Shown here in pieces: positions 1-36,194 of a stretch of DNA of 42,247 bases. The stretch spans positions 1-42,247 of the forward strand of contig CALUQO010000023.1 of NCBI GenBank assembly GCA_944322935.1, in the 5' to 3' direction. The first letter of the stretch is position 1, and every line of letters starts with the position of its first letter. The translations under genes were made by a program, and so were the position numbers. The notes below the pieces were generated by a model. It did no database searches and was not told the origin of the DNA. It saw only the letters and a program-made list of their open reading frames with translations. The stretch is from Candidatus Gastranaerophilales bacterium (lineage in GTDB: Bacteria; Cyanobacteriota; Vampirovibrionia; Gastranaerophilales; Gastranaerophilaceae).

Positions 1-360
1 TACGTTGTCAATCTTTTATGGCGCAGCTTGGTATTTAATTTTTATACAGCACGCAGAAGCTTCGCTTCTGTCTTAGCCCTCTCATAAAAGCAACATTTAG
101 TTGCTTTTATTCGGCAGTGTCTCCATTTCGACTTGACATTAAGTCAACTCTCAATGGAGTCCTTGCTACATCCCGATGTTACGTTGTCAATCCGTAGCGC
201 ACCTACGGTATTAAACTTTTTCTCTGCGCAAATTTATTGTGCTTTATATGACTACGTACGTAAAATAACAACTTATTCTTCTTTTTCAATGTGCAAATGC
301 TGTTTTAAAAACAGTACTTAAAGTTTATCAACAACATATATAGCCGTCAAGTTTGTTGCG
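1..360. other. Gene-free stretch with hairpins and short repeats
   Basis: No convincing gene is seen. The 62-codon frame at 133-321 has no ribosome binding site and overlies repeats. The stretch holds the structured repeat at 54-117, a 13-base direct repeat TACGTTGTCAATC at 1-13 and 180-192, and a small hairpin at 192-208 (CCGTAG/CTACGG, 5-base loop). The following gene reads towards this region from the right, so any transcript of it would run into these structures. Confidence 0.6.
54..117 (+). repeat. Structured dispersed repeat, copy 1
   Basis: Two hairpins in tandem. The first is at 54-70 with arms CAGAAGC/GCTTCTG around TTC. The second is at 84-110 with 11-base arms ATAAAAGCAAC/GTTGCTTTTAT around ATTTA. 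The second is flanked by CCTCTC (78-83) and TCGGCAG (111-117). The 40 bases at 78-117 recur identically, inverted, at 28437-28476. The first hairpin also recurs there, with one compensated base-pair change. Neither copy encodes a protein. Confidence 0.85.
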
Positions 361-765
361 CTACATTTTTCTTGTGACTTTAATAATATGCCACCCGAAT
401 CGGGTTTGTACAGGTTCTGATATACCGCCAATCGGGGTTGAAAAAGCTGCATTTTCAAATTCCGGCACCATCTGTCCTCTGTTAAAGTAGCCCAAATCAC
501 CGCCTTTATCCTTTGACGGGCATAACGAATATTGCTTTGCAAGTGTATCAAAATCTGCTCCGTTATCAAGCATTTTCTTTATTTCTATGGCTTCTTCCTG
601 TGTTTTAACAAGGATATGCTTTGCTCTTACAGTTCTATATACTTTTTGCGGTGCATCATCTTCATAAGCCTGTACTTTATCTGCAGAAAAATTAATAACC
701 GGCACTGCAAAGCTGCCTGCTAATATACTTATGCATAAAAGTTTTATTAAAAATATTTTTTTCAT
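361..765 (-). CDS. Exported parvulin-type peptidyl-prolyl cis-trans isomerase
   Basis: A 134-residue protein with a hydrophobic signal peptide (about residues 1-25 or slightly longer) followed by a single parvulin/rotamase domain (about 44-132). The domain starts at RAKHILVK and carries the family features GGDLGYFNRGQMVPEFE and a C-terminal GWHIIKV. It should catalyse prolyl isomerisation outside the cytoplasmic membrane. I chose the ATG at 765, not the upstream one at 795, because GGAGAG lies about six bases before it and the signal peptide then starts MKKIF. It lacks the SurA-type N-terminal chaperone domain, so it is a minimal PpiC/PrsA-like enzyme. It lies 78 bases downstream of manC on the same strand, possibly cotranscribed. 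Confidence 0.85.
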   Translation of the reverse strand: MKKIFLIKLLCISILAGSFAVPVINFSADKVQAYEDDAPQKVYRTVRAKHILVKTQEEAIEIKKMLDNGADFDTLAKQYSLCPSKDKGGDLGYFNRGQMVPEFENAAFSTPIGGISEPVQTRFGWHIIKVTRKM

Positions 766-843
766 CTTAAACTCTCCGTTTAAATTCTTGTTCAAATTTT
801 AAATAAAAATGTAATTAAAAACAATCGTCGGACGGGGCTATTT

Positions 844-28379: not shown

Positions 28380-28436
28380 TAAACCGCCTCATTATATTGT
28401 CTGAAAGGGACCTCGCTTATAAGAGTGCTATACACT

Positions 28437-28501
28437 CTGCCGAATAAAAGCAACTAAATGTTGCTTTTATGAGAGGAGCAAAGTCAAAAGCGAAGCTTTT
28501 G
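28437..28501 (-). repeat. Structured dispersed repeat, copy 2 (upstream of gcvT)
   Basis: Read on the minus strand it matches 54-117: first hairpin at 28501-28485 with arms CAAAAGC/GCTTTTG, then CCTCTC, then the second hairpin (28470-28444) and TCGGCAG, the last 40 bases being identical. The first hairpin differs from copy 1 by G to A in one arm and C to T in the other, so pairing is kept. A third hairpin (AGAGTG/CACTCT, 28422-28438 plus strand) follows here but not in copy 1. It lies 58 bases before gcvT in the sense direction, so it would be in the gcvT leader if transcribed. Confidence 0.85.
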
Positions 28502-28587
28502 CTTGCCGTATTCTGACCTTGTCGGGGTCAGTTGACTATATGAAAATTTATATATTATGTTTTAGGCTATTTTTTGATTATTGTCAA

Positions 28588-34946: not shown

Positions 34947-36194
34947 ATGGTTAATGGTATTTCAGGTCAAAATCCAAATTACTCAGCATTTTACAGAGCA
35001 GCAGCAGGCAACGCTGTAGTTAATCAAAACGATGTAAAAAACATGGTTAACTTTTTGAATGGTCAGCCTGTTACAGTAATGCCAGAACCTACAGTTGCCG
35101 AAATTACAGTTCAAACTCTTCCTTTTGCAGCAGCATTCGGCGGTATTCAAGGTTTTCAAGCTTTAAGAAGAAATAATTTTGATGTAAAACAAACAATTAA
35201 TAATATTAAGGCAGCTTCTCCATATACTCAAAGAAGCGAAGCATTAAAATCAGGTTTAGATAATATTAAAAGAGAATACGGTGATGTTCTTAAAAAGAAC
35301 GTAACACCCAATACAACAAGAGCACCGTTCGGATTGTCCAAACTGTTAGACAAAGTTCCCGGATATACAAAATTGAGAAGTACAGGCATCGGTAAAGCAA
35401 TGGGTAAATCCGGTGCAGGTTGGATGATGGTATTTGATGCAGTTGGCAAAACAATGGCTGATGTTGTACCTACTTTTCAACAATTGGGCTTTTCTGCCGG
35501 TATGAAACAGGTAGCTAAATCCGGTACACAAGTTGTTGCAGGCGGTGCAGGATGGCTCGCAGGTGATGCAGTAGGTACTGCAATCGGTACTGCAATCGGT
35601 ACTGCAATTTGCCCGGGTATCGGTACTGCAATCGGCGGTTTCTTAGGTAAATTCCTCGGCGGTGTTGTCGGCAGTGCAGTAGCCAGCAAAGCAGCAAAAG
35701 CTGTTACCGGGAAAAATGAACTTGAAAAAGTTCAAGAACAGCAAATGGCTGCAGTAACACAGCAGGTTGAAAATGATCCTAATACAAAACTTGCTTTAGC
35801 GCAGCAAACACTTGAAGCTGCAAACCAAATTCTTGCTCAAGATCCTAATAATCAGGATGCACTTGCAGCAAAAGCTTCAGCAGAAAAAGTTATAAATGAA
35901 CTTCAAGCATCTGTTCAACAGCCTGTAGACCAGCAAACTGTTCAACAACCTGCAGTTCAAAACGGATTTATGACTACGATGAGCGGCGTTCCGGTTGTAC
36001 CTGGCTTTAACGGCGTAGATTATGATATGAATGTATACACTGCAGCAATGGCAAATGCTTCTATGCCTTCTGCGTTCAACCCTATCGCAGCAGCAAACCA
36101 GTATATGGTGAATCCTTTCGGAGCGCAGACAGTTGCTCAACAAACAGCCGCTCAAACAACAGCTCAACAGACAAATCAAACAGCTGTTAAATAA
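34947..36194 (+). CDS. Unknown 415-residue protein with glycine-zipper membrane region and Gln-rich tail
   Basis: No family recognised. The order is: soluble N-terminus; a helix region (about 80-190); a glycine zipper (about 196-250) built on the repeat GTAIGTAIGTAI, encoded by a 12-base DNA repeat GGTACTGCAATC (three in tandem at 35574-35609, another at 35622-35633); a TPR-like helical pair (about 277-320, with DPNNQDALAAKASA); then a Gln/Ala/Thr-rich low-complexity tail. Glycine zippers form tightly packed helices that insert into membranes. There is no signal peptide. AGGAAG about eight bases before the ATG and a strong terminator mark a well-formed single gene. Function unknown. Confidence 0.8.
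   Translation: MVNGISGQNPNYSAFYRAAAGNAVVNQNDVKNMVNFLNGQPVTVMPEPTVAEITVQTLPFAAAFGGIQGFQALRRNNFDVKQTINNIKAASPYTQRSEALKSGLDNIKREYGDVLKKNVTPNTTRAPFGLSKLLDKVPGYTKLRSTGIGKAMGKSGAGWMMVFDAVGKTMADVVPTFQQLGFSAGMKQVAKSGTQVVAGGAGWLAGDAVGTAIGTAIGTAICPGIGTAIGGFLGKFLGGVVGSAVASKAAKAVTGKNELEKVQEQQMAAVTQQVENDPNTKLALAQQTLEAANQILAQDPNNQDALAAKASAEKVINELQASVQQPVDQQTVQQPAVQNGFMTTMSGVPVVPGFNGVDYDMNVYTAAMANASMPSAFNPIAAANQYMVNPFGAQTVAQQTAAQTTAQQTNQTAVK

Follow-up and report, generated by a model that had tools for sequence, protein, structure and literature searches.

The 42,247-nucleotide stretch of DNA analysed here (the window), from Candidatus Gastranaerophilales bacterium, carries a nearly identical pair of consecutive hairpins at two places. 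The question raised by this locus is whether such a unit is kept as an RNA, serves one particular gene or has been dispersed as DNA. The hairpins belong to a large family of tiny, apparently movable DNA palindromes that extends across Gastranaerophilales, a gut lineage related to cyanobacteria.

Two copies in the window and their family

Copy A, a dispersed unit of two hairpins (H1 and H2) at about 44-120 on the plus strand, matches the corresponding unit of copy B, at about 28434-28511 on the minus strand, at 90%. In copy A, H1 (CAGAAGC-TTC-GCTTCTG; 54-70, arms 54-60 and 64-70) is followed by the left box C-CTCTC (78-83), by the main hairpin H2 (ATAAAAGCAAC-ATTTA-GTTGCTTTTAT; 84-110, arms 84-94 and 100-110) and by the right box TCGGCAGTG-T (111-120), which departs from the consensus TCGGCAGAG-T by one mismatch. 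A third hairpin on the same strand, H3 (CTCCATT...AATGGAG; 121-159), was read by eye, as was the occurrence of loop types known from H2 in the H3 of other copies. Copy B comprises H1 (CAAAAGC-TTC-GCTTTTG; 28485-28501, arms 28501-28495 and 28491-28485) and the stretch of box, H2 and box, C-CTCTC-A..T-TCGGCAGAG, at 28435-28476 (covariance-model E 1.5e-15; H2 arms 28470-28460 and 28454-28444), all on the minus strand. It is held, on that strand, in a composite insert at about 28399-28546, the ends of which are known within a few bases, and the copy-B unit is matched repeatedly in eight relatives (G001, G006, G009, G010, G012, G014, G016 and G017).

The initial annotation of this DNA had described two copies of consecutive hairpins with 40 identical bases, and both the coordinates and a search for inverted pairs bear this out. 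The common run C-CTCTCATAAAAGCAACATTTAGTTGCTTTTATTCGGCAG (78-117 versus 28476-28437) lies within I1 (43 nt, 98%), which is the window's longest inverted pair and is adjoined by I2 (34 nt, 82%). The exchange of G for A on one arm of H1 and of C for T on the other (CAGAAGC/GCTTCTG versus CAAAAGC/GCTTTTG) had been read correctly, and so had the neighbouring genes: copy B lies upstream of gcvT and on the same strand as that gene, and copy A lies downstream of an ORF for a parvulin-type isomerase (361-795, minus strand), on the opposite strand. When the two units are folded as single-stranded DNA, none of 200 shuffles reaches their stability, whichever strand is taken (z -4.3 to -5.1).

Two other repeats were observed in the window. 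The sequence TACGTTGTCAATC occurs at 1-13 and again at 180-192, flanking copy A on both sides; the beginning of the contig may fall within a tandem repeat. A 12-bp tandem repeat, GGTACTGCAATC, occupies 35550-35633 within the ORF at 34947-36194.

A seed pattern yielded six close copies in genome G000, five of them exact and one with one mismatch. A covariance model was built from 18 hairpins, and 150 of 2299 first-look candidates were scored in this genome (2.3 Mb); the model gave 62 matches at E <= 0.1, which correspond to 58 distinct places, as the last four matches repeat earlier copies on the opposite strand. The further copies for which the initial annotation had proposed to search exist in number. 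Contigs C10, C13, C20 and C9 of G000 (loci L042, L045, L088 and L089) break off at a hairpin copy or array or within one, and the copy numbers are therefore probably underestimates. Of 40 relatives, 28 have the pattern CTCTCA-N18-48-TCGGCAGAG. Across the order Gastranaerophilales, 211 of 286 genomes carry it, namely 207 of the 264 that belong to the window's own family and 4 of the remaining 22; a reversed control pattern gave 2 hits. Among the matches listed in named genomes, the carriers are Candidatus Gastranaerophilales and isolate-titled genomes, many of them from gut or rumen. Inverted-pair length, copy number, order-wide occurrence and shuffled folds together rule out a chance origin of the match. 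Viral contigs gave 0 copies in two scans for two loop classes, and carriage by phage consequently has no support from these scans. No account of a CTCTC-box hairpin family was found among the open-licence papers listed, which is a weak negative.

Each unit reads C-CTCTC, arm, loop, arm, TCGGCAGAG-T, with a palindrome of about 10-12 bp and a short loop; in the window subfamily, H1 precedes and H3 follows the main hairpin. Of 227 contexts, at least 218 have a C before CTCTC and 215 have a T after the GAG of the right box. The loops belong to a small number of types; the commonest, given with their closing pair, are CATTTAG (80), CACTG, CACCG, CACAG and TACTTAA/TACTCAA. The foot boxes are nearly fixed and the arms differ between subfamilies, yet the arms match each other; the hairpin family thus separates structure from sequence. 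A same-strand neighbour lies within 250 bp of 56 of the 158 sampled hairpins, at a spacing of 70-239 bp. On the strand CTCTGCCGA..GAGAGG (e.g., window 78-119), the boxes place GA on both strands beside a short bulge. This arrangement, in boxes that hardly vary, may resemble the kink-turn motif.

Matched arms, empty sites and tRNA genes

In 122 distinct hairpins, the own arms pair at 86.1%, and arms dealt among the copies (200 deals) pair at a mean of 57.4% and a maximum of 60.4%. All four Watson-Crick types are present at arm positions 8 and 10; the counts at position 10 (n=123) are G-C 50, A-T 24, T-A 20 and C-G 10. A C-C mismatch occurs at position 7 of the H2 arms in 29 of 123 distinct hairpins, though other arm bases vary. 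The H1 alignment contains 30 of 32 segments from several genomes; L196, in which one missing base would unpair one cell, and L045, which holds another H1, were left out. In these 30 copies, the inner stem is paired in 210 of 210 cells with 4 of 7 pairs changed on both sides, and over the whole of H1 99.3% of cells are paired and 34 cells are changed on both sides. The pair singled out in the initial annotation is A-T in 17 and G-C in 13 of the 30 copies, with no other state. In the pairing alignments, whose copies are related to each other, the number of paired cells, the number of two-sided cells and the covariation score lie above shuffles. The number of pairs with a two-sided change does not exceed chance (reached by 421 and 105 of 500 shuffles in the two alignments), nor do further pair types (494 and 488 of 500).

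Recent copies show a different kind of change. A comparison of 42 copies from the window subfamily covered 462 arm cells: 10 are changed on one side, 3 of these 10 in a single divergent match (L207), and 1 cell is changed on both. Such one-sided drift suggests that pairing is kept in the copying lineage and not in every copy. Copies that drift singly and subfamilies that differ by paired changes are what would be expected if only copy-producing copies need matching arms.

Empty sites indicate that DNA holding these hairpins has been inserted. The gcvT-rnhC gap in G012 (flanks 98-100% identical) and in G016 is without the roughly 148 bp that hold copy B. A carrier termed M1 runs from TGTTCGAGAAAAATTCGTG to CTAGATTAGAT with the hairpin module inside and measures 178-353 bp in 13 pairs of genome stretches; for three of the seven M1 carriers looked at (L039, L061 and L040), relatives show uninterrupted sequence at that position. 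Clean empty sites were obtained for carriers (the copy-B insert and M1), not for a lone hairpin in unique DNA. Copy B lies in a second carrier, whose ends recur in elements that flank a RAYT gene (see below) in G012. These empty sites, the 58 places in G000, the 211 of 286 genomes and the position of 152 of the 158 sampled hairpins outside mechanical ORFs of at least 100 aa support dispersal, which the initial annotation had preferred to a gene-specific riboswitch.

As short non-autonomous inserts, the M1 carriers and the copy-B composite are like MITEs. Unlike MITEs, they have neither terminal inverted repeats nor a target-site duplication evident by eye, and no long gene-carrying (autonomous) version was found among 13 M1 and 8 M2 pairs. 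Cyanobacteria, a related branch, reportedly harbour very small mobile repeats (SDRs; Elhai et al., 2008), and the hairpins would likewise be tiny mobile repeats.

Many hairpins stand beside tRNA genes. In a sample of 114 stretches of named genomes, picked by loop-class pattern among the matches listed, 56 of the 158 hairpins have a tRNA gene no more than 300 bp away, compared with 795 of 20,000 random positions (4.0%); the fraction holds for that sample. Upstream of the tRNA, 41 of 41 hairpins are on the opposite strand, and downstream, 12 of 15 are on the same strand, with three that break the orientation rule; the CTCTC end thus points towards the tRNA in 53 cases out of 56. The tRNA-adjacent hairpins sit within partial copies of the neighbouring tRNA gene, often with tandem neighbours. 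Relative to the intact gene, 4-7 nt are replaced at the hairpin in 48 of 51 scorable units (5 nt in 21 units, 6 nt in 21 units), at tRNAs for 11 amino acids, and three units break the rule. The 51 scorable units come from 72 distinct ones, a flank of the other 21 matching the tRNA by fewer than six bases; 12 of the 51 stem from 14 hand-picked loci, and without them the rule holds in 36 of 39. Of the 17 units on the 3' side, 14 have lost GANTCC, in the T-arm, and in one more the missing tract includes this motif. In the 31 units on the 5' side, the missing tract, read outward, is in most cases GCTGC, ACTGC or GCTAC and falls at tRNA positions 12-23, within the D-arm; in the three tRNA-Ile units, it falls at 27-32, in the anticodon stem. 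A comparison of L142 with L096 revealed a similar replacement in a carrier element, of ACTTC and ACTCC.

The tRNA-Phe gene was followed through 13 loci, of which six have a whole hairpin and four lack one; in the remaining three, the hairpin is interrupted internally or truncated by the end of the contig. The flanks of the six whole hairpins are nearly identical, and their arms or loops differ between species. One of the four hairpin-less loci, in G012, holds a tyrosine integrase (L347 2170-3186, minus strand; Phage_integrase, 132 bits) where other species have a hairpin array, and this tRNA end may therefore double as an integration site. Owing to the conservation of tRNA genes, the ancestral sequence of many junctions is known, which makes the chemistry of insertion readable from genomes.

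In our judgement, the probable reading of these data is a non-autonomous, REP/MITE-like family of mobile DNA hairpins of the order Gastranaerophilales. The palindrome would fold when the DNA is single-stranded, and a putative trans-acting enzyme would recognise the two boxes at the hairpin foot, leaving the arm sequence free provided that both arms match. On arrival, a hairpin would take the place of 4-7 bp within a short site, with a preference for D-arms or T-arms of tRNA genes (in partial tRNA copies) or for larger miniature elements. It would then spread by being amplified in tandem and carried along with those elements. Only tentatively do we propose that the hairpins represent a class of mobile DNA for which the shape of the hairpin and the two boxes at its foot, whatever the arm sequence, serve as the recognition signal. 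Such hairpins would land on conserved motifs in the D-arms and T-arms of tRNA genes, swap out 4-7 bp, face the tRNA in a constant direction and employ an enzyme that is neither a RAYT, an integron integrase nor a reverse transcriptase.

The main rival, which we consider unlikely, is that the palindromes are born in replication and are not mobile units: template switching would copy one arm from the other and keep the arms perfect. The inverted T-arm sequence found directly before several hairpins would fit such an origin, as would H1 changes that are two-sided with almost no intermediate. The same is true of loop inversions, namely TAAAT in place of ATTTA in L185 and, in a G019 copy (C2:50589), a loop that is the reverse complement of a usual one; these inversions point to folding or arm-to-arm exchange in DNA. 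Template switching is, however, difficult to reconcile with nearly fixed boxes, with a similar replaced tract beside tRNAs for 11 amino acids, with insert differences at orthologous sites and with one-sided drift in recent copies. It may shape the arms of the mobile hairpins as well.

The search for a mobilising enzyme

A RAYT gene (REP-associated Y1 transposase) elsewhere in the genome, to which the initial annotation had pointed as something to look for, does exist: G000 has one PF01797 match (NF047646 131 bits versus a cut-off of 80). That REP elements are moved by the RAYT of the lineage is nevertheless improbable. The single RAYT of G000 (C7:23715-24149; L046, L149) sits inside a CTCTC hairpin beside tRNA-Phe, which would speak for the connection, but the gene is bounded by palindromes of its own (GTAGG..CCCAAC), the loop of the hairpin being replaced by GTAGG-palindrome, gene and palindrome. 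At the same tRNA, G007 retains a GTAGG remnant in such a hairpin loop (L095), and by eye most of the 21 RAYT loci listed have their own GTAGG-type palindromes. Hairpin number and RAYT presence do not co-occur either: no RAYT match at E <= 0.001 was obtained in the hairpin-rich G006 (61 hairpins), G014 (50), G017 (34) and G007 (23), G006, G014 and other relatives being incomplete genomes, and G027, G028, G033 and G039 have a RAYT and no hairpin. Since RAYT genes elsewhere mostly have their own palindromes and do not follow hairpin number, the gene in G000 is read as having inserted into the hairpin. Moreover, TAC (GTA on the other strand) precedes CTCTC in only 65 of 227 contexts, so the GTAG tag is not conserved. 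The idea of a GTAG-type REP served by that RAYT is accordingly not supported, given the missing tag, the different palindromes at the RAYT and the hairpin-rich relatives without a RAYT match, and RAYT as the needed mobiliser is rejected on co-occurrence.

Other candidates fared no better, and no mobilising enzyme emerged. Reverse transcriptase (PF00078) gave 0 matches in G000 (completeness 99.76), and reverse transcription was set aside for want of this enzyme there. A small tyrosine recombinase at C10 is found in 14 of 40 genomes, G000 included, and is absent from the hairpin-rich G001, G006, G010, G012 and G014. No Pfam family occurs in more than 3 of the 122 neighbouring ORFs scanned (best 25 of 136 families); the 122 were taken from 170 ORFs found by script, most of those above about 1.5 kb being left out.

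GTAG-tagged REPs and REPINs are described, in the passages concerned of three papers (PMC3116915, PMC3733652, PMC8266576), as small extragenic palindromes that are single, paired or clustered, with stems that differ between families and with some REPs inside larger palindromes. Compared with those passages, the hairpins are similar in being short, extragenic and present in many copies, with variable stems, a RAYT in the genome and some copies inside larger elements. They differ from GTAG REPs, as portrayed there, in the lack of a conserved GTAG tag and the conserved box on both sides, in arms that are very different within one genome, in a presence that does not follow RAYT, and in the tRNA association and replaced 4-7 nt tract. 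CGTC-tagged REPs, in the relevant part of PMC3733652, are small palindromes reported without a dedicated transposase, with 8-9 bp stems, 4-5 nt loops, a CCA-like tail and a terminal tag that is CCTC in many repeats, besides a TGTC variant. The left box of the hairpins reads CCTCTC and thus starts with CCTC; in contrast to the CGTC REPs of that account, arm pairing extends over about 11-12 positions, and the TCGGCAGAG-T box closes the right side. The spread of very small gene-less palindromes through bacterial genomes is called unresolved in passages of PMC3116915 and PMC3733652.

DNA palindrome or RNA element

A regulatory or structural RNA is a very improbable alternative to the mobile DNA hairpin. 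Both units fold strongly, and the arms and H1 covary, as an RNA element would lead one to expect, but G-U (G-T) pairs are scarce: they make up 16 of 1257 pairs (1.3%) on one strand and 29 of 1269 (2.3%) on the other, compared, at the same loci, with 183 of 1655 (11.1%) in the folds of 69 tRNAs and 31 of 480 (6.5%) in acceptor stems. This scarcity points to a DNA palindrome, not an RNA, and offers a simple test that separates DNA palindromes from RNA stems. The hairpins also occur in both orientations relative to genes and tRNAs, and copies drift without compensation. The window has no Rfam match at gathering score, and in a relaxed search of nine loci a single match overlaps a copy, at chance level (snR75 in L006; E 2.9, 20.1 bits versus a gathering score of 40). 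MicroRNA names in that relaxed search were far below their gathering scores and fell on other palindromes. The selection on an RNA that had been suggested from the conserved pairing is therefore not supported, given the lack of an Rfam match at gathering score, the scarce G-U pairs and the one-arm drift.

A GTT core box is part of the definition of attC, the recombination site of integrons. That the hairpins are integron-like sites of this kind, with fixed boxes, free arms and tandem units, is the least credible of the readings and is largely refuted here: structure-only recognition would explain the free arms, tandem neighbours are present, and the C-C mismatch that 29 of 123 hairpins show at arm position 7 is reminiscent of unpaired bases in attC, but the hairpins have no GTT core box, the neighbour spacing of 70-239 bp is short for gene cassettes, and none of the four scanned of five PF00589 matches in G000 is an integron integrase above cut-off, the best TIGR02249 score (146 versus 265) coming from a XerC/XerD-like gene. 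Separately, L003 contains at 1136-1210 a long palindrome (AAAGAAAGAAAAGTATC type) that differs in kind from these hairpins and lies outside their boxes.
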